Source: Pedobacter helvus
GTDB taxonomy: Bacteria > Bacteroidota > Bacteroidia > Sphingobacteriales > Sphingobacteriaceae
Assembly: GCF_005925325.1 (NCBI RefSeq)
Contig: NZ_SRMP01000002.1
Coordinates: 496,001 to 560,000 of the forward strand
DNA length: 64,000 bases
Reading direction: 5' to 3'
Positions 21,436-32,884 of this stretch are shown here, piece after piece (position 1 is the stretch's first letter; each line of letters starts with the position of its first letter). The translations under genes and the position numbers were made by a program. A model generated the notes under the pieces. That model made no database searches. It was not told where the DNA came from and worked only from the letters and a program-made list of their open reading frames with translations.

Positions 21436-22305
21436 ATGATAGTTTCTATAAGGAATGAGCATCTAGCCATTGAGTTTGCGACAAAAGGAGCAGAACTGAA
21501 AAGTATTGTCGGCATAGATAGTTCGGTTAATTACATGTGGCGTGGCGATGCGCAATTCTGGGGGAAATTTAGTCCGGTATTGTTTCCAATTGTAGGAGCA
21601 CTTAAAGAAAATACTTACGAATATCAGGGCCAAAAATATACTTTGCCTCGACACGGATTTGCCCGCGACATGGAGTTTGAACACGAATTAATTAGTGCTA
21701 CAGAAATCGCTTTTAAGCTTAAGCATACTGAAGAAACGCTAAAAATCTATCCATTTCAGTTTGAATTAACGCTATGTTATCGTTTGCGAGGCGCAAGTTT
21801 GCAATGTACTTATCAGGTCGTTAATCCTAGTGATCAAACGATGTTATTCTCTATCGGCGGCCATCCTGCATTTGCCGCTCCCCTTCATGGCGAAGGTACT
21901 TACACAGACTATTATCTAGAATTTAATAACGATGATGAACTGACTTTTCATCATATAGAAGATAATTTAATTTCGGATCAAACAACAACCATCGAGCTTA
22001 AAGATAAAATGTTGCCTTTAAAACACGAACTATTTTATGGCGACGCCTTGGTGTTTAAGAACTTAAAAAGTAACCATATTCGTTTGTTGAATACGAAAAA
22101 CTATAAAGGACTTAACTTTCATTTCGAGGGCTTTCCATACTTTGGGATTTGGGCTGCCATAGATGCAGATTTTGTATGCTTGGAGCCTTGGTGTGGCATA
22201 GCTGATGGTGTAAATCATAATCAACATTTAACGGAAAAAGAAGGAATTGAAAAACTTTCGGCAGGCGAAACATGGGAAAGAAGCTGGGAGGTTTGCTGTT
22301 TTTAG
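21436..22305 (+). CDS. Aldose 1-epimerase family protein (LacX/YeaD-like)
   Basis: A 289-residue beta-sandwich protein of the galactose-mutarotase superfamily. Visible motifs: FGKFSPVLFPIVGALKENTY with LPRHGFARDMEF near residue 70 (Arg/His pair), SIGGHPAFAAP (catalytic-type His), and WAAIDADFVCLEPWCGIADG (catalytic Glu region) near the C-terminus. Such proteins interconvert sugar anomers or bind hexose-6-phosphates; the substrate of this subfamily (often annotated LACX) is not settled. It is preceded by a word-like hairpin and is probably monocistronic. Confidence 0.87.
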   Translation: MIVSIRNEHLAIEFATKGAELKSIVGIDSSVNYMWRGDAQFWGKFSPVLFPIVGALKENTYEYQGQKYTLPRHGFARDMEFEHELISATEIAFKLKHTEETLKIYPFQFELTLCYRLRGASLQCTYQVVNPSDQTMLFSIGGHPAFAAPLHGEGTYTDYYLEFNNDDELTFHHIEDNLISDQTTTIELKDKMLPLKHELFYGDALVFKNLKSNHIRLLNTKNYKGLNFHFEGFPYFGIWAAIDADFVCLEPWCGIADGVNHNQHLTEKEGIEKLSAGETWERSWEVCCF

Positions 22306-22433
22306 TTCTAGTTATCCTTTGTTTTTAGTTTAAGTAGTTGTTTTTCATTGTCTTGTGTTTCTGTTGGTTTTTTTTATTTCTAATGTAGGGGTATAAGCAA
22401 TTCTTGTTGTCTCATTTTTAAATAAGACACAGA

Positions 22434-23609
22434 ATGAAACAATCGTACTACAAAAAACTAATTCAATACACCAGAAGAGGAACAATTTTAGCGCTATGCT
22501 CGTTAAGCTTAGCCGTTCAAACTAATGCTCAAGAGAACAAAACCTTAAAAGCTAATTTTGGTTTAATCTATCCTTTAAGTACCAACGGTACACATGCACC
22601 TTTAGACACTAATGATTTGTCTGTACACTTGTTGGCGGGTGTTTCCTCAGTAGAGAGAGGGAGTGCTTTTGCAGGACTTTCTAATATTGTTCGCAATGAG
22701 GCTAAAGGTGCGCTATTTGCAGGTTTTTCTAATCATGTAGGCAAAGAGGCAAGTGGGGCACTATTTGCAGGCTTCTTAAATACCTATCGTTCTGCCAAAG
22801 GACCTCAGCTGGCTGGTTTTGCAAACTTGGCACAGGCTGATGTTAACGGAGTTCAATTCGCTGGTTTTTTAAACGCTACTGGCGGCAATATGAATGGCGT
22901 TCAGTTTGCAGGTTTTGCCAATGTAACACGTAGTCTAAATGGAAGCCAGTTTGCGGGTTTTGCTAATGTAGCTAATAACACATCCGCTTCTCAGTTTGCT
23001 GGATTTATCAATGTTGCCAAAGATGTAAACGGAAGTCAATTTGCAGGTTTTATTAACGTTGCTAAAAAAGTTAAAGGAGTACAAGTTGCTGGTTTCATCA
23101 ATGTAGCCGAAACAAGTGATAGTCCTATTGGTATCATCAACATTATTAAAAATGGAGAAAAAAGTATTGCCGCAACTATAGATGAAACTCAAACTAGTAT
23201 GTTAACGTTTAGGTCTGGTGGTAAAAATTTATACGGGATTATTGGTGCGGGTTACAACTTTAAAAACGAAGATGAAGTTTATGCATTTGAAGTTGGCTTA
23301 GGTGCTCATTTCTTCCAATCGAGACATTTTAGGCTGAATATGGAGTTAACTCAAAGTACATTAGAAAGTTTCAAAGAAGGAGAGTATTTCAAGAGTACGC
23401 TGAGGCTGTTGCCAGCAGTAAAAGTAGCACCTTGGATAGAGTTGTTTGGCGGTCCGTCAATCAATTTTGTAAGTACAAATACGGCAGAAGGCTTAGCACT
23501 TCACCCCGAAAGTGACGATTTAGTGATCCATACTTGGAAAAACAGACGGTCTGATTTTAGACAATCGCTTCATATTGGTTATCAGGCAGGCTTACAATTT
23601 ATTTTTTAA
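22434..23609 (+). CDS. Secreted surface-repeat protein with GxQFAGFxNV repeats and C-terminal barrel-like domain
   Basis: A 391-residue protein. A signal peptide (LAVQTNAQ) is followed, from about residue 76 to 233, by ten tandem repeats of 15-16 residues with consensus NGxQFAGFxNVA (for example NGSQFAGFINVAKKV). The C-terminal 150 residues alternate in the manner of membrane beta strands (YGIIGAGYNF, EVGLGAHFF) and end in Phe. The repeat spacing is not that of 5-residue pentapeptide proteins. It resembles what databases call LA_2272-type surface repeat proteins, a likeness given from memory. The same repeat-plus-tail layout occurs in the gene at 26749. Function unknown. It lies 78 bp before the desaturase fusion, in the same direction. 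Confidence 0.8.
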   Translation: MKQSYYKKLIQYTRRGTILALCSLSLAVQTNAQENKTLKANFGLIYPLSTNGTHAPLDTNDLSVHLLAGVSSVERGSAFAGLSNIVRNEAKGALFAGFSNHVGKEASGALFAGFLNTYRSAKGPQLAGFANLAQADVNGVQFAGFLNATGGNMNGVQFAGFANVTRSLNGSQFAGFANVANNTSASQFAGFINVAKDVNGSQFAGFINVAKKVKGVQVAGFINVAETSDSPIGIINIIKNGEKSIAATIDETQTSMLTFRSGGKNLYGIIGAGYNFKNEDEVYAFEVGLGAHFFQSRHFRLNMELTQSTLESFKEGEYFKSTLRLLPAVKVAPWIELFGGPSINFVSTNTAEGLALHPESDDLVIHTWKNRRSDFRQSLHIGYQAGLQFIF

Positions 23610-23687
23610 ATCTTTAAATGATGCCGAAATCAATTCAGCATGATAGGTTCAATTCGATGAATCTTTAAATCTCTCAAGTTTAAAATT

Positions 23688-25172
23688 ATGGCTAATCCAA
23701 TTTATTGGCAGGTTTTTGGTAGCAGTTTCGGTGCCCGAAAACTTGTCCCAGAAGACCTATATCTTTTGCATACGCCAAATTTAATAGCTTATGCCCTGCC
23801 GGTTGTAGTAGTGTTTACCGTATTAGAGTTTGTGTTAGGAAAAATTTTTAAGCACGAAGATTATAGCCATGCGGAGCTAAAAGGTTCTTTGTGGGTTGGT
23901 TTAGGCAATTTACTGGTTAACCTAATCTTAAAATCAGCACTTTTATTTGCTGCAGTATGGCTTTACAATAAGTTGCCATGGCGTATAGAGTTGAGCTGGT
24001 GGAGTTTAATTCCGTGTTTTTTGATCTACGATTTCTGCAGCTATTGGTCGCACCGGATTTCACATTTTAACCGCTTCTTTTGGGCATCGCATGTGGTACA
24101 TCATTCTGCGGAGCATTACAACTTGACGGTGGCTTTTAGGCAAAGTTGGGTACAGCATATAAAAGTTGTCTTCTTTATTCCGGTTGCTTTATGCGGATTT
24201 CATCCCGTGATTTTCTTAGTAGCTAGTCAAATAAGCACACTTTATCAATTTTGGGTACATACCGAAGCAATTGGAAAGCTGCATCCATTTATCGAAAAAT
24301 ATTTTGGAACACCTTCCAACCATCGTGTACATCATGGAAGTCAGGATAAGTACATAGATAAAAACTTTGGAGCAACGTTCATGATCTGGGATCATCTATT
24401 TAAAACATTCCAATATGAAGAAGAAAAGCCTAAATATGGCTTAACTACAACGTTAACCAACAAAGCAAACCCTTTCGAACTTAATTTTCACGAATACAGA
24501 GATATTGTAAGAGACATTAGGCAAAGCGATGGATTAAGAGAGATGTTATTTTTTATGTTCGCCAGTCCAGCAAAAGTATATCGTTACAAAGCAGTCCAAC
24601 AAAAGTTACCACCCGAGTCTAAATTAAATTGGACGTTAAAAGTAACCGTATTAGCTTTATTCTTGTTGGTGATTGGACAATTGTTATCGGCGCAACCCCA
24701 CTTACCAGAGCCTAAAATCAAAAACCTGCTCTTTTTTCTTCAGCGAACGCCAGATGCCAATACCGTAGTGTATCAGTTAAATTTAAACCAAAATGGAGAT
24801 GTTGATGAGCGTAATCCAGTAAAGGTGTCATGGATTAGGTATGAAGAAAATGGTGTGGTTAAAGAGTTGTCTGCTATTGAAAAGAAATTTGCTTATGGCG
24901 TAAAATGTAAAGCAATTGGCAACCATGTTTACGAAGTTAGATTGGCTGCTTACAAAAAACTACCTATGTATTTGCAGAAAACGACTACCGATCAACAATA
25001 TCGACTTTACATCAAAGATGAAGGGAAAGATTTGCTGCTAAAACGTGTTTTTGTAAAGGTCGACGGAGGTAGTTTTTGGTTCCCCAAAGTGCATTATGTC
25101 GATTTATTTACTACCGATAGTGATAATGGCGCCCAAATTTTAAAACGTATTAATCTACAATCCAATGGTTAA
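23688..25172 (+). CDS. Sterol desaturase/fatty acid hydroxylase family protein fused to DUF4833
   Basis: A 494-residue protein. The first ~300 residues are a membrane di-iron hydroxylase with membrane segments and the three histidine clusters HRISH (122-126), HVVHH (135-139) and HRVHH (212-216). After a basic linker comes a hydrophobic segment (about 314-332, VTVLALFLLVIGQLLSAQ) that looks like an internal signal peptide. The DUF4833 domain follows (about 340-490; FFLQRTPDANTVVYQLN and NPVKVSWIRYEENG). DUF4833 proteins are usually separate secreted proteins, so this looks like a gene fusion. The lipid substrate is unknown. The stop overlaps the start of the sigma factor gene. Confidence 0.85.
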   Translation: MANPIYWQVFGSSFGARKLVPEDLYLLHTPNLIAYALPVVVVFTVLEFVLGKIFKHEDYSHAELKGSLWVGLGNLLVNLILKSALLFAAVWLYNKLPWRIELSWWSLIPCFLIYDFCSYWSHRISHFNRFFWASHVVHHSAEHYNLTVAFRQSWVQHIKVVFFIPVALCGFHPVIFLVASQISTLYQFWVHTEAIGKLHPFIEKYFGTPSNHRVHHGSQDKYIDKNFGATFMIWDHLFKTFQYEEEKPKYGLTTTLTNKANPFELNFHEYRDIVRDIRQSDGLREMLFFMFASPAKVYRYKAVQQKLPPESKLNWTLKVTVLALFLLVIGQLLSAQPHLPEPKIKNLLFFLQRTPDANTVVYQLNLNQNGDVDERNPVKVSWIRYEENGVVKELSAIEKKFAYGVKCKAIGNHVYEVRLAAYKKLPMYLQKTTTDQQYRLYIKDEGKDLLLKRVFVKVDGGSFWFPKVHYVDLFTTDSDNGAQILKRINLQSNG

Positions 25173-25782
25173 TTGTGTAGCTGAAATCAAACCAATATAT
25201 TTGACGCATCTTAACGTGAATACAGCCATCAACACATATAATGATGTTGCTTTTGAGCAACTCTTTAAAGCGCATTACAAGGCTTTGCATGCCTATGCCA
25301 ATATGTTGCTAAAAGATATAGATGCTGCCGAAGAAGTGGTGCAATCTATGTTTTTAAAGCTCTGGGAAAAAAGAGATTTGTTGGAAGTGCAGACTTCTGT
25401 AAAGGCATATTTGTACAAGTGTATTTATAACGATAGCCTTAATTTGTTAAAGCATGAGCAGGTAAAAACGAAATATCAGGATTTTACGGTGCATACCATG
25501 AACACGCATCATGAAGCCGCTTCTAACAGGGTTGAACTATCTGAATTGCAAAAGGAACTCAGATTAGCAATGGAAGGTCTGCCAGAGCAATGTCGTATCA
25601 TTTTTCAGATGAGCCGTTTCGAAGAGTTGAAGTACAAAGAAATAGCAGAGCGATTAGGAATTTCCGTGAAAACCGTAGAAAACCAAATGGGAAAAGCGTT
25701 GAAAATCTTACGCCTCAAATTGGTAGATTTTCTAGTGCTGATTTTGCTGGGCTTAGTTAACCATAATGATTATTTAAATTAA
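25165..25782 (+). CDS. ECF sigma-70 factor (FecI-like)
   Basis: A 205-residue protein. Region 2 is FEQLFKAHYKALHAYANMLL ... AEEVVQSMFLKLWEKRD. Region 4 is LPEQCRIIFQMSRFEELKYKEIAERLGISVKTVENQMGKA, with a helix-turn-helix. This is the usual Bacteroidota ECF type paired with a FecR anti-sigma factor. The ATG at 25165 overlaps the desaturase stop by 8 nt, implying coupling; a GTG at about 25216 would give a more typical short N-terminus and remains possible. The C-terminus has an unusual hydrophobic tail (DFLVLILLGLVNH). The FecR gene follows after 10 bp. The regulon is not visible, but it may include its own operon. Confidence 0.92.
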   Translation: MVNCVAEIKPIYLTHLNVNTAINTYNDVAFEQLFKAHYKALHAYANMLLKDIDAAEEVVQSMFLKLWEKRDLLEVQTSVKAYLYKCIYNDSLNLLKHEQVKTKYQDFTVHTMNTHHEAASNRVELSELQKELRLAMEGLPEQCRIIFQMSRFEELKYKEIAERLGISVKTVENQMGKALKILRLKLVDFLVLILLGLVNHNDYLN

Positions 25783-25792
25783 GCAAAGCGAT

Positions 25793-26746
25793 ATGAATGA
25801 CGAGTTATTGATAAAGTTTCTGCTTAAGGAGACCACATCGGAAGAAAATAAAGAAGTCCAAAATTGGATGGTGGCCGATGCCGAAAACGAAAAATATTAT
25901 CGCCAATTTGAACGCATCTGGAAGGAAAGCGAAGCGCTAGCCCAAGCATCAACAGTAGACGAAGAATTAGCTTGGCAAAAATTTAAACAGCGTGTTGATG
26001 AGAAGCAAACAACCGTTCCAGTGGTTAAGAAACTAAAGCTAGCGCAGTTTTGGTTGCGTATTGCTGCGGTATTTGCTATTTGCTTTGGTAGTTGGTTGGT
26101 TTACCAAAACTTGAACGGATATACCGATTTGGTTAGCAGTGAGGTAGTGCTCAATCAAGAATTGCCTGATGGAAGTAAATTGGTTTTAAACAAAAATACC
26201 AGCATCAGCTATGCTAGCAACTTTAAATCCAATCGTAAAGTAGAGCTCGAACAAGGTGAGGTTTTCTTTGATGTGGCACATGATCGTTCGCATCCTTTTG
26301 TAATCGATATCAAAGGTGTAAAAGTAGAAGTGGTGGGGACTTCATTTAACATCAAGAGATTTAAAAATGCGGTAGAAGTGATTGTGGAAACAGGCGTTGT
26401 TAAAGTCAGCAAAGATAGTCAGCAATTGAAGCTCTTGAAAGGTGAAAGCATCATGTTGGCAGACGATGAAAAGATAATTGCGAAACAAAAAACCGAAGAT
26501 GAGCTTTATAGTTACTATCGAACCCAGTTGTTTGTTACCAATAATACGCCGCTACCTAAGTTGATAAATACACTTGGCGAAGCATATGGAGCAAAAATTT
26601 CGTTAAGTGAGCAGGTAAAAAAAGATCGAATTTCTACTACTTTGCCATTCAAGTTTTCGTTAGAAAAAAATCTGGAAACTATTTGTGAAACGCTGGATTT
26701 AAAGATGCAACGTAACCAGGATGAGATTTTGTTGTCTAAAAAGTAG
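25793..26746 (+). CDS. FecR family anti-sigma factor
   Basis: A 317-residue inner-membrane protein. The cytoplasmic N-terminus (about 1-80) would hold the sigma factor. One membrane segment (FWLRIAAVFAICFGSWLVY, about residues 84-102) follows, then the periplasmic FecR domain (LPDGSKLVLNKNTSISYASNF ... GEVFFDVAHDRSHPFVI ... VEVVGTSFNIK) and the C-terminal DUF4974-type domain (LINTLGEAYGAKISLSEQ). In known systems the periplasmic part receives a signal from the STN domain of an outer-membrane receptor. Here an STN-domain gene follows after only 2 bp, but it is not a TonB-dependent receptor. Confidence 0.93.
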   Translation: MNDELLIKFLLKETTSEENKEVQNWMVADAENEKYYRQFERIWKESEALAQASTVDEELAWQKFKQRVDEKQTTVPVVKKLKLAQFWLRIAAVFAICFGSWLVYQNLNGYTDLVSSEVVLNQELPDGSKLVLNKNTSISYASNFKSNRKVELEQGEVFFDVAHDRSHPFVIDIKGVKVEVVGTSFNIKRFKNAVEVIVETGVVKVSKDSQQLKLLKGESIMLADDEKIIAKQKTEDELYSYYRTQLFVTNNTPLPKLINTLGEAYGAKISLSEQVKKDRISTTLPFKFSLEKNLETICETLDLKMQRNQDEILLSKK

Positions 26747-26748
26747 AA

Positions 26749-28536
26749 ATGAAAATCAGACTATTTATTACGCTTCTTTTTATCAGTTCCTTTTGTGCTG
26801 CTCAAACTGCCGTTAATTATAACCAAAGCAACCTTGCTAAGCTGGTGACTTTAGATTTAAAGGCACATAAAATTAGTAATGTGTTGCAGAAAATAGGTAA
26901 TGCCGGTGGATTTTATTTCACTTATAACGGCGCCCTATTTGGTCAAGACAGCATCGTAAACTTAAATGTTCGCAATAAGCCAGTTCGAGAAGTTTTAGAA
27001 CAGCTTTTTGATGGTAAGGTAGACTATAAAGAAAATGCAGAATACATTATCCTTCGTTATGCTGTTAACCATTTCGCTATCGAAGCGGAAAGCATTATCA
27101 CCGCAGAAAATTTATATGCCATTACCGGTAGGGTGGTTGATACGCAAACTGGTAAGAAAGTAAAAAATGCTAGTGTTTACGAAAAGCGACTGTTGCAATC
27201 TGCATTAACAGATGATGAAGGTTTTTTTAGTTTAAGGTTTAAAGGTGCGCATGATGCAATTGTTTTAACTGCTAGTAAAGAAACTTATCGGGATACTTCG
27301 ATTGTATTTCTTTCTAGTATCGATATTAAGCCGAAGGGATATAATGATCCCGATAAAAATAAGGGGACTTTCGTATCTAACTTACTCGATAACATTAAGA
27401 TCGGACGTTGGTTAACTTCTTCTAAGCAGCGTATTAGAAATATAAATGTTCCAGATTTTCTGACCAATATGCCGGTTCAGGCCTCGCTTGTGCCAGGTTT
27501 AAGTTCTCATGGCAGCATGAGTGGTAGTGTGGTAAATAAATTCTCACTTAATTTAATTGGCGGATATACCGCAGGGGTAGATGGTGCAGAAATAGCAGGC
27601 GTGTTTAATATCAACAAAACGGATGTAAGATATGCTCAAGTTGCGGGGGTATTGAATTTAGCTGGAGGGACTACCGAAGGAGTACAAGTGGCAGGTGTTT
27701 TTAATGTAGTTGGGCAAAATGCGAATGGAGTTCAGGTGTCGGGTGTTTACAATCATGTAAGAGGTAAAACTAATGGTATTCAGGTTTCTACAGCCAATTT
27801 TACGAGAGGACTTGTAGAGGGTATGCAGATTTCGGCGGTAGGCAATGTCGCCGGTCAAAAATTAAGGGGTTTTCAATTAACTGGGTTTTTAAACCTAGTT
27901 AGGAGAGATGTTGATGGTTTTCAGATCTCTGGCGTTATAAATAGTACTTTGCAAAACCTAAAAGGGGTGCAGCTCTCTGGAATTCTTAATTACGCAAAAC
28001 ACAATAAAGGTTTTCAATTGGGACTAGTCAACGTGGCAGACACTTCTTCTGGTGTAAGCTTTGGGCTAATTAATTTCGTAAAGCGTGGCTATCATAAGAT
28101 AAGTATTTCTTCTAATGATGTAATCAATACCAACATCGCTTTTAAAGGTGGAAATTCTAGCCTTTATACAATATTCCTATTAGGTAAAAACTTCGTAGCG
28201 CAAGAAAATATCGAAACGTTTGGATTGGGTTTTGGCCACGATTTTTTTGCAGGCAAAAGATTTTCATTTTCTACCGAATTAACTGCACAACACCTGCATC
28301 TAGGTAGATGGGATCACGCCAATATCCTAAATAGGTTTCAATTGAATCTACAGTTAAGGTTATCTAAGCTGTTGAGCATCTATGGCGCTCCGGTAATTAA
28401 TTATTATGTAAGTGAAGCGCCTACTGACTACGTCGTGGCATCGGGTTATAAATCTCAAATTTCACCAAGTTACAGTAAAGATATTCGTGGCCATAAAGGT
28501 TGGCTTGGTTGGTCTGTTGGTGTAAATCTATTTTAA
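26749..28536 (+). CDS. STN-domain, carboxypeptidase-regulatory-like, repeat/barrel surface protein
   Basis: A 595-residue protein. Signal peptide (FCAAQ); STN/secretin-type domain at about 25-110 (VTLDLKAHKISNVLQKIGNAG ... VREVLEQLF); carboxypeptidase-regulatory-like domain at about 122-190 (YAITGRVVDTQTGKKVKNASVYE). After a linker come about ten 15-16-residue repeats with consensus GVQVAGVxNxxxx (about 275-450), and a tail of beta-strand type ending NLF. The repeat and tail parts match the layout of the 22434 protein, including a shared GLINF/GIINI junction. There is no TonB plug or 22-strand barrel. STN domains contact FecR in known systems, so this protein is the probable signal donor. What it senses is unknown. 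Confidence 0.82.
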   Translation: MKIRLFITLLFISSFCAAQTAVNYNQSNLAKLVTLDLKAHKISNVLQKIGNAGGFYFTYNGALFGQDSIVNLNVRNKPVREVLEQLFDGKVDYKENAEYIILRYAVNHFAIEAESIITAENLYAITGRVVDTQTGKKVKNASVYEKRLLQSALTDDEGFFSLRFKGAHDAIVLTASKETYRDTSIVFLSSIDIKPKGYNDPDKNKGTFVSNLLDNIKIGRWLTSSKQRIRNINVPDFLTNMPVQASLVPGLSSHGSMSGSVVNKFSLNLIGGYTAGVDGAEIAGVFNINKTDVRYAQVAGVLNLAGGTTEGVQVAGVFNVVGQNANGVQVSGVYNHVRGKTNGIQVSTANFTRGLVEGMQISAVGNVAGQKLRGFQLTGFLNLVRRDVDGFQISGVINSTLQNLKGVQLSGILNYAKHNKGFQLGLVNVADTSSGVSFGLINFVKRGYHKISISSNDVINTNIAFKGGNSSLYTIFLLGKNFVAQENIETFGLGFGHDFFAGKRFSFSTELTAQHLHLGRWDHANILNRFQLNLQLRLSKLLSIYGAPVINYYVSEAPTDYVVASGYKSQISPSYSKDIRGHKGWLGWSVGVNLF

Positions 28537-28639: not shown

Positions 28640-31600
28640 TTATATGATGACGATCTTTTTTGAATAAATCTTTTCGGCGGTTTTGATCGTTAGCACGTAA
28701 GTACCTTTTGCAAATTTGGATACGTTCAAGTTTTCAATAACCGTTCCGCTCATTTGTTTGCTTTGTTGATATACCTGCTGACCTAATATGTTTGTTAAAC
28801 TTAACGTAACAGCTTGCTGATTGGTAATTTCAAATGCAACAGTTAGCTCTCTAGCGGTGGGTACCGGGAAGATTTGTAGTTTAATTTCATTTTCACCGCT
28901 GTTAGTATTTAGAAATGTAATTTCATTGGATATCACAATGCAGTTATTGCCAATTGTTGTCCAAGCCTGGTATTTGCCAGCTTTTAAAGGCTTGTAAGTT
29001 TGACCTGTGGCATTCTCTATTTGTGCTCCGTTAACATACCAGCTAGTATTGCCAACTAAATTGGTTACCAGTTCATCACCATTTCTAGCTATTAAAAATT
29101 TGGGAACCGGCACTTCCACCCGAGCAGCTCCCATACATCCCAAAGCTTTAACCTTCACGTCATAAAAATAATAATAGAAAGATGCTGGTTGGGTAGCATT
29201 GTTACCTGTAATATTGAATATTTCTAAGGCCGAACTTAGCGGATAAATACTGCTACTAACACCGTTATTCCTAAAAATGGTGGCGCCGTCTTCGTATACG
29301 GTGCGTATAGAGTAATTTCCAGCCGTAGGGAATGTAAGGTTCAAAAAATAAACTTCTCCTTGGTCGGTCAAATCATCGGGTGCTGTACCTGCCATTGGAA
29401 CGTTTCTCGTGGCATTTACACGGAGTGTAGTACTAGAAACTTCTACGCCAGTTTCATTTTCTACATAAATTTTGATGGTTCCTGGATAGCCAATATATAG
29501 TCGAGCGCTTTCCAAAATAGTAGGCGCACTGACACGTACATTAACTTTACTTGTGGTTTGTAGATATGTCCCGCTACCTAATCTTGCTTCGTATTTATTT
29601 TTAGGCCCGAGGGTGCTGGTGTAATCGTTTAATGCAGCGTAGTAGGTGTTATTAGCTGATGTAATAGTGGTGCTGATATTATTTCCATAAGCAATAGGAA
29701 CAGTAGAAGTGTTGTTTTCGTACCAGTAAGTTATTCCATCGCCATTAGCACTCAATTGATACTGTTTGGTATTATCGCAGTAGAATGCTGTTGTGTTCGC
29801 TAAAGCCGGAGCTAAACTTACTTGCTCGGTTTTAATCATCGCATCATTTGATGAAACCAGATCAGTACTTAACAAAGTTTTGGCATTGATTTGATAAGTT
29901 TTTCCTGCATTTGCAGCATAAGTTCCGGGCAAAGTAAACTCTTGTTCTTGCGATGGTTTGATTTCTCCGGTGTAAGTTCCACTTAGCGTAGCAATGGTAT
30001 TATTCGCTTCTGTAATGGTTGCATTAACAGTAATATTAGAAATGCTTTGAGTTCCGAAGTTTCGTATCACTACAGTTACCGTTTGTTGAGGATTTGAACA
30101 GTTAGATGTCCTGTCTTTGATCGCGGCAATTCCAACATCGGTACTAGTACCTACAAATTTAACTCGGTAATCTTGGGTTTCACCTTTGGTATAGTTTCCA
30201 CAGGCTTGTACTACGTTGGCATCATTGGTCTCTGCTAATACTAATCTCAATAACGAAAAGCTATTGATGCCAACTGTTGTAGGAACCGAGAGGTTAGCTG
30301 TTAGCAAGCCAGTGCCGTTGATTACTGCGCTGGTAGCAACCAACTCATTGCTGTCGTTGAAATCGCCATCGCCATTCCAATCCATAAAAACTTTGGCAAC
30401 TTTGTTAAAATTTGCGCCGCAAGTTCCCAAAGAGAGCGTTAAGGGATAAGTTCTTGCTTTTTCCAACTCAATGGTTTGGTTGGTGAAATCATTATATGAA
30501 GTACACCCCGCTGCTGCCGTGTAATTAATGTTAGCTAAACTAAATCCAGTGATTTTAGAATCATTTGGAGATAATGGTGCAGAGGCACAATATGGATTTC
30601 CGCCAATACCAGTAACTACTATAGAATAAGCTTGCGAACCTGATTTTAAAGTGCCTTTATGGGAAATGGTGAAAGTGTAGGTCTTGCCTGGAACAGCGTC
30701 GGCAATGAAAATTTGTTCCACATTGTCTCTAAAGTTATCACCTTTCGTGGCTGCCGAAGACGGGTTTGCAGGATTTAAAATCCAAGGGGAAAAGGTAGTG
30801 ATTCCATCACTTGCTCTCATATCTAGATCATTAACCAATCTCAATGTGGGGTTGTTTAGTGCATTTTGTTCAGGAATAACAGTTGCTTCAGGATCTGTCC
30901 AAGCAATTGTAGCTATGATTGGGCCATCTCCAGAAGCAATCACATTAAAGTTCTCGGTTGCACCTTGACTTAGCACTTTTTCTGTAATCGAGCTTTTTGT
31001 TCCATTAGTTAAGATCGCCTTTGCTGCGCTTTCCGTATTCATTAATCCCCAACCAAATATATAATCTGGCCCTGGGTTTGGGCCTGCCTCACTAGCGGTG
31101 CCTAAGGTTAGTGCTTTCAGGGTAGCAGCTCTCATAAAGCTGTTATTTTTTTGATGATAAAGTTCTTGCAGAAGCACCAAAGAGCCGCTTACACTCGGCG
31201 CAGCCATAGATGTGCCAGACAAAGTGGTATAACTTTGATTGCCTGTAGTGTTGGTGGTCGATGTTACGTTAACACCATCGGCAGCTATATCTGGTTTGAT
31301 CCTACCATCATCAGTTGGCCCCCATGCGCTAAAAGACGAAATAGTAATATCGCTGGGCGTTACCGTGCCATAAGTAAGTGGGTTTACAGCCGCAACAGTC
31401 ATGATATTTTTAGCTACAGCGTAAGTTCCCAAAATGTCATAGCCATCATTGCTAGAAATTCCGGCTGGTCTAGGGCCAGCATCAACTAAAATCTTGTTAG
31501 TATTATAGCGAAAATAGTTTGTTCCTACGGCTGGCCCATTGCTATTTCTGTAGTTGCCGCCAGATTTTACTGGTAAGTAATAAGGTGCATTATAGCAGAT

Positions 31601-32368
31601 CTTGTCCCACTCTTGGGCATCTGTATCATAATATCCAAATTTGTAGTCTTCGTTTTCACCTGGTCGCCCTAAAAATTCCCATCTATTTGCGGTTGTGTTT
31701 TCATACCAACCTGCCGAGGTACCATATGAATGATTAGATATTAAAAGCGATGCTGCGTAATTCGACATTTCTGAGTTGTCATTGTTAAAATCGAATGATA
31801 ACAACTTTGGAAGACCGTAAGCCATTCCTTTGGCATTTGGATTTTTCCCTTCGGCCATGATGGTTCCTGCAACGTGTGTGGCATGGCTAGACGATGAGGT
31901 AGCGCCATCTTTAACTTCAACTCTGTTGTTTTGGAATTCTATGTGGGTGGTTAATACTGCACCTCCGTCCCAAATGGCTATTTTGTCGTTGGGTATGGTA
32001 CTACCGCTTAAATTTAGTCCTAGCGAGCCACCAGCATATAATTTGTTGGTATTAATGGTTGCTGCGGATATAGCATTATTTTCGGTGATCTTGTATAAAG
32101 GCAGTCCAAAATCGTCTACTCCATATAAAGAGAAAACCTTACCTTCTCTAGTTATCCCAAAAGTTTCCCAACCTTTTTCTGCAGCAAGCGTAAAGGCACG
32201 CGAACGCTTGTTAATTTGCATCGTATTAAGCTCTATCGCATTTTGCTTTAGGAAAACTGTATTGGTTTGGTTTTGTTTATTAGCTTGAGCGTATAGTTTA
32301 TCGATGTTGATTAAACACGAAATAACCAGTATGGTTAGCAGCAGGTATGGAAGTTTTAGGCTACGCAT
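28640..32368 (-). CDS. S8 subtilisin-like protease with GEVED domain and T9SS sorting signal
   Basis: A 1242-residue secreted protein with a signal peptide ending KLYAQ. The catalytic triad of subtilisins is visible: Asp134 (AIWDGG), His165 (HATHVAGTI) and Ser387 (LSGTSMAAPSVSG). Further along come a GEVED-type domain (CTSYNDFTNQTIEL ... VFMDWNGDGDFNDSNELV), Ig-like/CARDB-type segments, and a C-terminal type A sorting domain (LQIFPVPTARELTVAFE ... FAKGTYVLTIKT ... KKIVII). It should be exported by T9SS and either released or anchored on the surface. Its target is probably extracellular protein. It converges on the STN-protein operon with no clear terminator between. Confidence 0.93.
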   Translation of the reverse strand: MRSLKLPYLLLTILVISCLINIDKLYAQANKQNQTNTVFLKQNAIELNTMQINKRSRAFTLAAEKGWETFGITREGKVFSLYGVDDFGLPLYKITENNAISAATINTNKLYAGGSLGLNLSGSTIPNDKIAIWDGGAVLTTHIEFQNNRVEVKDGATSSSSHATHVAGTIMAEGKNPNAKGMAYGLPKLLSFDFNNDNSEMSNYAASLLISNHSYGTSAGWYENTTANRWEFLGRPGENEDYKFGYYDTDAQEWDKICYNAPYYLPVKSGGNYRNSNGPAVGTNYFRYNTNKILVDAGPRPAGISSNDGYDILGTYAVAKNIMTVAAVNPLTYGTVTPSDITISSFSAWGPTDDGRIKPDIAADGVNVTSTTNTTGNQSYTTLSGTSMAAPSVSGSLVLLQELYHQKNNSFMRAATLKALTLGTASEAGPNPGPDYIFGWGLMNTESAAKAILTNGTKSSITEKVLSQGATENFNVIASGDGPIIATIAWTDPEATVIPEQNALNNPTLRLVNDLDMRASDGITTFSPWILNPANPSSAATKGDNFRDNVEQIFIADAVPGKTYTFTISHKGTLKSGSQAYSIVVTGIGGNPYCASAPLSPNDSKITGFSLANINYTAAAGCTSYNDFTNQTIELEKARTYPLTLSLGTCGANFNKVAKVFMDWNGDGDFNDSNELVATSAVINGTGLLTANLSVPTTVGINSFSLLRLVLAETNDANVVQACGNYTKGETQDYRVKFVGTSTDVGIAAIKDRTSNCSNPQQTVTVVIRNFGTQSISNITVNATITEANNTIATLSGTYTGEIKPSQEQEFTLPGTYAANAGKTYQINAKTLLSTDLVSSNDAMIKTEQVSLAPALANTTAFYCDNTKQYQLSANGDGITYWYENNTSTVPIAYGNNISTTITSANNTYYAALNDYTSTLGPKNKYEARLGSGTYLQTTSKVNVRVSAPTILESARLYIGYPGTIKIYVENETGVEVSSTTLRVNATRNVPMAGTAPDDLTDQGEVYFLNLTFPTAGNYSIRTVYEDGATIFRNNGVSSSIYPLSSALEIFNITGNNATQPASFYYYFYDVKVKALGCMGAARVEVPVPKFLIARNGDELVTNLVGNTSWYVNGAQIENATGQTYKPLKAGKYQAWTTIGNNCIVISNEITFLNTNSGENEIKLQIFPVPTARELTVAFEITNQQAVTLSLTNILGQQVYQQSKQMSGTVIENLNVSKFAKGTYVLTIKTAEKIYSKKIVII

Positions 32369-32419: not shown

Positions 32420-32884
32420 ATGACCTACATTAAAAAGATAGCATTTTTATGTTTTTTGATTCCATTAATGAGCTGTTCAGTACAAAAAGAAGGCACACCT
32501 AAAATAAAACAAGGTGTTTTTGGTTCCGTAACTTGGGTAGAAGGAAATATGATGCCTTCTCCAGACGCACCAAAATCTGCTGGAAAAAAAGGAGTGGAGA
32601 GAGAAATCCAAATCTATGAAGTGGTTACTTTTAAAGATGTGAAGGGAGAGGCCCCGCTATTCGAGAAGGTAATTGGCAAACTGGTTAAAACAGTGAAATC
32701 TAATGCAAAGGGGTTTTATGAATGCGAACTCCCAGTGGGTAAATATTCCGTATTCACCGTAGAAGAAGGTACAAAGCTTTTCGCCAACAATTCTGACGGC
32801 GAGGGAAAGATCAATAGTGTTAAAATTGAAAATGGCAAAGTGGTGCAGCTCGACATACAGATCAACTATAAAGCGGCATATTAA
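32420..32884 (+). CDS. Small lipoprotein, function unknown
   Basis: A 154-residue protein with a lipoprotein signal (IPLMSC, Cys19). The mature part begins VQKEGTPKIKQGVFGSVTWVEGNMMPSP and has a carboxypeptidase-regulatory-like feel (GSVTWVEG ... KSNAKGFYECELPVGKYSVFTVEEG), that is, a small Ig-like beta-sandwich. No enzyme motif is seen. It is divergent from the protease gene and converges on the kinase gene. The likely location is the outer membrane or periplasm. Confidence 0.75.
   Translation: MTYIKKIAFLCFLIPLMSCSVQKEGTPKIKQGVFGSVTWVEGNMMPSPDAPKSAGKKGVEREIQIYEVVTFKDVKGEAPLFEKVIGKLVKTVKSNAKGFYECELPVGKYSVFTVEEGTKLFANNSDGEGKINSVKIENGKVVQLDIQINYKAAY

Follow-up and report, generated by a model that had tools for sequence, protein, structure and literature searches.

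A probable FecIR-type signalling cassette of Pedobacter helvus with its STN domain on a predicted small outer-membrane barrel protein

In the textbook FecIRA model, signalling through an STN domain is tied to nutrient receptors. We describe here a five-gene cassette of Pedobacter helvus (Bacteroidota) that appears to place this domain on a protein of another kind. The cassette occupies positions 22434-28536 of a 64,000-nucleotide stretch of DNA (contig NZ_SRMP01000002.1, positions 496,001 to 560,000 of the forward strand, assembly GCF_005925325.1; hereafter the window) and encodes, in order, a repeat protein (gene 1), a hydroxylase fusion (gene 2), an extracytoplasmic function (ECF) sigma factor (gene 3), a FecR anti-sigma factor (gene 4) and the STN protein (gene 5). 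The gene set, its conservation, the predicted folds, the promoter and its sites are computed results. In our reading they probably represent cell-surface signalling of the FecIR type whose STN domain belongs to a small OmpA-type barrel protein, not to a TonB-dependent receptor, and which serves as a sensor-effector loop for adjustment of the outer membrane.

FecIRA and FoxIRA signalling (PMC11637429; PMC7186176) involves an ECF sigma factor, a one-helix FecR anti-sigma factor and an STN domain on an outer-membrane protein, and in these respects the cassette is alike. It differs in that the STN domain of those systems belongs to a TonB-dependent receptor, whereas here it is joined to a solenoid and an 8-stranded barrel in which no plug was found, and in that the predicted regulon consists mostly of envelope genes. 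The cassette has a FecI-like ECF sigma factor with FecR, and STN on a third protein (sub-threshold in Pfam, with a fitting predicted fold), but the STN protein is not a TonB-dependent receptor with a plug and a large barrel; because this defining receptor is missing, we do not file the cassette as FecIRA. SusC-type STN receptors of ECF-controlled polysaccharide loci in Bacteroidota (PMC7782687) share the sigma/FecR pair and an N-terminal region with STN and carboxypeptidase-regulatory-like parts, but the cassette has no adjoining SusC/SusD, and gene 5 is far smaller and has a different barrel. The Dma anti-sigma factors of Bacteroides thetaiotaomicron likewise connect a beta-barrel of the outer membrane with sigma control in the cytoplasm, and they affect outer-membrane vesicles (PMC13088901). 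Dma, however, is a single polypeptide that combines an anti-sigma domain, a helix, a disordered tether and a barrel and has an ECF21 sigma partner, whereas the anti-sigma factor and barrel of the cassette are separate proteins for which contact through STN and FecR is proposed. In the open-access literature searched, a scope that leaves most subscription papers outside, no description of STN-solenoid-barrel signalling was found.

The five open reading frames (ORFs) all lie on the forward strand with intergenic spacings of 78, -8, 10 and 2 bp (Table 1), and the tight co-directional arrangement and domain content proposed in an earlier sequence-only reading of the window were borne out. The histidine boxes of gene 2 (HX3H at residue 122, HX2HH at residues 135 and 212) are presumably catalytic, and gene 4 has a single hydrophobic stretch at about residues 86-104, N-terminal to its FecR and FecR_C domains. 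No Plug, TonB_dep_Rec or receptor-barrel family was detected in gene 5 by Pfam at E <= 1; many of its close relatives bear precomputed PF07660 and PF13715 labels. The motif GxQxx[GA] occurs six times in gene 1 and six times in gene 5, mostly in steps of 15-16 residues. Two thousand shuffles yielded means of 0.41 and 0.44 copies and maxima of 3 and 4, respectively, so that the repeat common to the two proteins, which had been noticed in the earlier reading, exceeds chance. The repeats of gene 5 are weakly similar to those of LA_2272-type proteins, below the cut-off of the model (NF047436, 24.1 bits against 25), and gene 1 gave no match to it at E <= 1.

AlphaFold2 models, compared with known structures by Foldseek, arrange gene 5 from the N to the C terminus as an STN domain, a sandwich domain, a linker, a beta-solenoid and an 8-stranded OmpA-type barrel. 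Weak Foldseek matches of the STN region include the secretin N0 domain 4ar0 (E 3.3e-2). Gene 1 is predicted to comprise a signal-peptide-like N-terminal helix, a beta-solenoid (about 22608-23147) and an 8-stranded barrel (about 23157-23603), with no STN domain. The repeats are predicted to form the solenoid and not the barrel, so the original description of a repeat/barrel protein keeps its barrel and loses the attribution of the repeats to it.

Table 1. Coordinates of the cassette and its predicted features, counted from the first letter of the window.
Feature	Positions	Strand	Details
Predicted ECF-type promoter, GTAGGGGT-N13-GTTGTCT	22385..22412	+	end 21 nt before gene 1 start codon
Gene 1, STN-less solenoid-barrel protein	22434..23609	+	391 aa; no Pfam/NCBIfam family
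Gene 2, FA_hydroxylase-DUF4833 fusion, three histidine boxes	23688..25172	+	494 aa; PF04116 E 2.8e-26, PF16117 E 3.2e-48
Gene 3, ECF sigma factor, Bacteroidota FecI-like subfamily	25165..25782	+	205 aa; TIGR02985 178 bits (cut-off 126.4)
Gene 4, FecR anti-sigma factor	25793..26746	+	317 aa; PF04773 (FecR) and PF16344 (FecR_C), both above cut-off
Gene 5, STN-solenoid-barrel protein, proposed outer-membrane FecR partner	26749..28536	+	595 aa
Gene 5, STN domain	26842..27060	+	residues ~32-104; AlphaFold2 model; Pfam STN at 58-90, E 2e-4, below cut-off
Gene 5, CarbopepD_reg/macroglobulin-like beta-sandwich	27070..27318	+	residues ~108-190
Gene 5, beta-solenoid built by 16-residue repeats	27475..28089	+	residues ~243-447
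Gene 5, C-terminal 8-stranded OmpA-type barrel, final residue Phe	28090..28533	+	residues ~448-595, ~148 residues

An unlinked STN receptor was considered as the partner of this FecR. A Pfam search of the genome for STN returned 24 rows at E <= 1, and these include 16 distinct genes at E <= 0.01, every one of them with a FecR gene upstream. Gene 5 (a 598-amino-acid frame) is the sole member of this set that is not receptor-sized, the frames of the other 15 spanning 899-1217 amino acids. At E <= 1, FecR accompanies 18 of 19 STN genes, among them L400 (12.5 bits) and L401 (12.2 bits); further weak rows duplicate genes already counted (L395, L396, L399 and L402) or lie within a FecR frame (L397). 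The exception, L398, is a 605-amino-acid frame at 13.1 bits with neither FecR nor an STN-family match. As every STN gene at E <= 0.01 lies behind its own FecR, no clear orphan STN receptor remains as an alternative partner and the candidate is unsupported. The proposal of a trans-envelope unit whose STN partner is not a TonB receptor is therefore supported, with no receptor family in gene 5, a small predicted barrel, and a FecR of its own for each of the 15 other STN genes.

The distribution of the cassette was examined across genomes. In 59 genomes including that of the window, a gene 5 homologue (E <= 1e-15) is present in 27, and within the genus in 24 of 36. A scan of named genomes gave 321 relatives confirmed by tblastn, the best 80 of which were kept (others may be without the STN part); represented among these 80 are Pedobacter, Daejeonella, Mucilaginibacter, Chitinophaga, Niastella and Dyadobacter. 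Together with 15 regions chosen from an even draw across the phylum they make up 95 loci, partly non-independent (L109 is the same as L194), whose ORFs were called by a longest-ORF rule instead of a gene finder and whose neighbours were labelled with purpose-built profiles. In 90 of the 95, the sigma, FecR and STN genes adjoin one another and point the same way, with median gaps of 8 and 1 bp; the exceptions are contig ends or a split gene (L137, L139, L141), a gene 5 homologue with sigma and FecR absent beside it (L192), and one with FecR alone (L204). Within seven ORFs, 78 loci have gene 1 or another repeat-barrel copy, 53 a DUF2807 gene and 33 the hydroxylase label. The conserved core is the sigma-FecR-STN trio and the hydroxylase is accessory; of the five-gene unit originally envisaged, the trio and the repeat-barrel gene recur and the hydroxylase often does not.

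These counts bear on the suggestion that the sensed lipid is a product of the hydroxylase, so that the barrel protein would detect the hydroxylated product and close a feedback loop. The gene stands directly 5' of sigma both in the principal Pedobacter cassette and in L064 and L065, which are divergent cassettes, and the cassette hydroxylases, including those two, form one clade (98, starred) apart from the three paralogues of this genome. However, three of the 33 labelled genes are short remnants of 218-247 amino acids, the gene has been lost or cut down to DUF4833 in several Pedobacter, the L129 enzyme falls outside the clade, and an enzyme under regulation need not produce the signal. We regard this feedback model as improbable.

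The phylum draw addresses a further alternative, in which the STN-repeat protein has a structural or surface role and shares nothing but its transcription with sigma and FecR, while FecR obeys another signal. The family profile matches 61 of 395 genomes, many through the repeat-barrel part alone. Among 29 loci read, 17 have long frames (552-753 amino acids, counting L162, in which the STN part itself is unmatched), and FecR lies in the short flanks of 16; the exception, a homologue that stands alone (L148/L192), would suit a structural role. So would the other 12 (L163-L174), which are STN-less repeat-barrel frames of 392-528 amino acids from other families with neither FecR nor sigma in any short flank. 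The 16 of 17 long frames flanked by FecR, and the position of this genome's STN genes behind FecR, speak against such a role, which we judge very improbable.

Two gene orders predominate. Mainly in Sphingobacteriaceae the order is gene 1 - (DUF2807) - (hydroxylase-DUF4833) - sigma - FecR - STN; the DUF2807 gene lies between gene 1 and the hydroxylase in the nearest relatives of the window and is absent from the window. In many other groups it is sigma - FecR - STN - (gene 1 or second repeat-barrel) - (TonB-dependent receptor) - (DUF2807). An intermediate order, gene 1 - receptor - sigma - FecR - STN, occurs in a Mucilaginibacter locus (L136:6021-8398), with the receptor as two ORFs of 551 and 232 amino acids. 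Second STN-less repeat-barrel genes lie beside STN at L130:11935-13164, L132:12007-13140 and L193:8206-9252; they score best against the STN-type profile and are 28, 31 and 26% identical to gene 1, which suggests separate duplications. The DUF2807 tree, which includes two of the six DUF2807 copies of this genome, is weakly supported (94, not starred). Cassette sigma factors also cluster with weak support, with two non-cassette sigma factors among or beside them (row L138_16 of that tree is the second sigma of its locus, not the cassette one). Pfam revealed no SusC/SusD in the cassette or in the flanking genes at 21436-22305, 28640-32368 and 32420-32884; the gene at 28640-32368 on the reverse strand, the convergent neighbour of the cassette, encodes an S8 subtilase with a GEVED domain and a Por secretion tail.

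A finding beyond the sequence-only reading is a predicted promoter before the operon, together with a second, unlinked site. The pattern GTAGGGGT-N13-GTTGTCT emerged from an alignment of 61 regions upstream of gene 1 homologues, and its strict core is present in 40; several of the 21 misses reflect clipping by start choice or small changes, and some have no motif in the region taken. The exact pattern has a single match in this genome, that of the operon. With up to three mismatches there are 64 matches genome-wide against 130 for a reversed control, and because they are no commoner than the control such loose matches mean little. The profile R1 (46 positions, built from 22 operon copies including the window's own, so that its operon matches are not independent) finds two significant matches in this genome, one at the operon with E 8.8e-11 and the other at an unlinked receptor with E 4.2e-6; the next have E 0.35 and 0.68. 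In other groups the promoter lies before sigma, with at most three mismatches in 22 of 33 loci (22 of the 28 where sigma comes first). As a control, 16 further sigma genes of this genome with a linked FecR were scanned, and the best match before any of them has four mismatches (17 regions were fetched; L419 gave no sigma, and L408 and L409 overlap). A conserved promoter of predicted ECF type thus precedes the unit's own genes. The first ORF behind the 30 best sites is a gene 1 homologue in 25 and a short or different ORF in five, one of which (L331) proved to be the operon when a longer stretch was read (L374).

The second site precedes a gene for a 783-amino-acid CarbopepD_reg-Plug protein, a TonB-dependent receptor, followed by DUF4249; the 20 kb around the pair contain no ORF labelled as sigma or FecR. 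Ten genomes were checked for this site, and it is present with at most three mismatches in seven, where the receptors are 86-91% identical to, or are, this genome's copy; in G033 the profile match is weak, at E 0.14. The three genomes without it have receptor relatives that are 49-70% identical. One genome, G483 (L378), has the receptor site and no operon site at E <= 0.01. The site as such occurs at E <= 0.01 in 46 of 79 genus genomes, and it follows the cassette: it is present in 21 of 24 genomes that carry the STN protein and in none of 12 that lack it (Fisher 3.6e-7), and for sites outside the operon the figures are 14 of 24 and 0 of 12 (Fisher 7e-4), two of the 12 genomes being only 78% and 80% complete. 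This co-occurrence supports the proposed use of the promoter by the cassette sigma factor.

Reading 42 sites gave 15 before a small barrel gene (a 189-amino-acid OMP_b-brl_2 protein) and 7 before a lipid A acyltransferase, both in other Pedobacter, as well as 7 at DUF6134-epimerase-SDR-sigma cassettes, 3 at the operon, 2 at receptors, 1 at DUF2807 and 7 unassigned; identities rest on Pfam for one barrel and two acyltransferases, the remainder being grouped by similarity. The seven DUF6134-type cassettes found in this way have GTTGTAT instead of GTTGTCT. Three further sites comprise two operons and one receptor, which is followed by a gene of 268 amino acids. In Dyadobacter (L138) a lipid A acyltransferase lies directly 3' of the gene 1 homologue, and L144 has a similar-sized gene at that position. 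At L057, L060, L190, L363, L365, L366, L368, L369, L372 and L334 the neighbourhood of sigma-FecR-STN includes DUF6134-type, epimerase/3beta-HSD-like and SDR genes, and these cassettes are paralogous. Most assignable targets are thus predicted envelope genes, and the regulon is predicted to be very small. Since it lies behind the promoter, the gene 2 hydroxylase is itself a probable target.

Several observations weigh against the sensor-effector reading. The full-length gene 5 model has a pTM (predicted template modelling score) of just 0.48, and the Pfam scores of gene 5 are sub-threshold for CarbopepD_reg_2 (27.7 bits, cut-off 32.2) and for STN (21.5 bits, cut-off 28.4). The links from STN to FecR and from sigma to promoter are ones that we infer, and the operon matches of R1 carry the dependence noted above. 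Three of the 24 genomes with the STN protein show no site, and 23 of 25 receptor relatives from an earlier draw (46-55% identical) are without one. Only three of the seven acyltransferase sites are within 50 nt of the ORF, the other four lying 181-337 nt before it and so not close. Seven of the 42 sites have no clear target (L336, L337, L338, L343, L361, L367 and L371), L338 being a non-significant match (E 0.35). This genome has neither an acyltransferase nor a small-barrel site, and targets vary between clades. As a separate observation, the L367 and L371 sites stand, by eye, before a serine-hydrolase-looking gene in two genomes.

A TonB-dependent receptor also lies within seven ORFs in 21 of the 95 loci and could be the true sensor. 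The original view that the STN partner is not a TonB receptor holds for gene 5 itself, and TonB-dependent receptors nevertheless form part of the larger setting, one unlinked receptor sharing the cassette promoter. This leads to an alternative in which a nutrient transducer has been cut into two proteins, an STN-less receptor (with a DUF4249 lipoprotein) acting as sensor and the STN-solenoid-barrel protein relaying substrate occupancy to FecR for the regulation of nutrient uptake. At L133, L140 and L145 the gene after a receptor encodes, in cis, a lipoprotein of similar size (Pfam analysis covered the DUF4249 lipoprotein of L133 and the receptor of L145), and the unlinked receptor-DUF4249 pair described above shares the promoter. 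Yet no receptor was detected within seven ORFs in 74 of 95 loci, some on contigs ending nearby; 22 of the 42 sites precede a small barrel or acyltransferase and two a receptor; the receptors are not of one group (against two receptor queries, L352 and L357 score oppositely); and receptor presence requires at least nine changes on the STN-protein tree (80 rows). We consider a split transducer rather unlikely.

Under the sensor-effector reading that we favour, the barrel of gene 5 would sit in the outer membrane, with the solenoid probably on the periplasmic side and the STN domain docking with the C-terminal domain of FecR, the anti-sigma factor of the inner membrane. A change in the outer membrane, be it in the state of barrel or lipid or in the action of a partner receptor, would alter this contact and cause FecR to release the ECF sigma factor, which would then transcribe, from GTAGGGGT-N13-GTTGTCT promoters, the operon that encodes it and a very small regulon. 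Candidate targets are the solenoid-barrel partner and the hydroxylase within the operon and the unlinked receptor-DUF4249 pair; relatives add either a lipid A acyltransferase or a small barrel of the outer membrane. These predicted products fit a loop for adjusting the outer membrane. As to the direction of control, a study of FoxIRA reports that the signalling domain binds the anti-sigma factor even without signal and shields it from proteolysis (PMC11637429). If such behaviour applies here, FecR would stay intact as a result of proper insertion of the gene 5 product, and sigma would be freed by loss, misassembly or capture of that product.

Tentatively, and with less confidence than we attach to the loop itself, we suggest that the cassette may represent a widespread outer-membrane surveillance system of Bacteroidota, assembled from FecIR parts and functionally comparable to sigma-E of Proteobacteria. 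A barrel-anchored periplasmic beta-solenoid would hold STN against FecR while the membrane is in order; were the solenoid lost or misassembled, a sigma factor would be freed that directs production of lipid A acyltransferase, lipid hydroxylase, small barrels and receptors. If true, this would provide a candidate pathway for outer-membrane homeostasis in Bacteroidota, with a promoter, targets and a sensor that are testable in ordinary Pedobacter strains.

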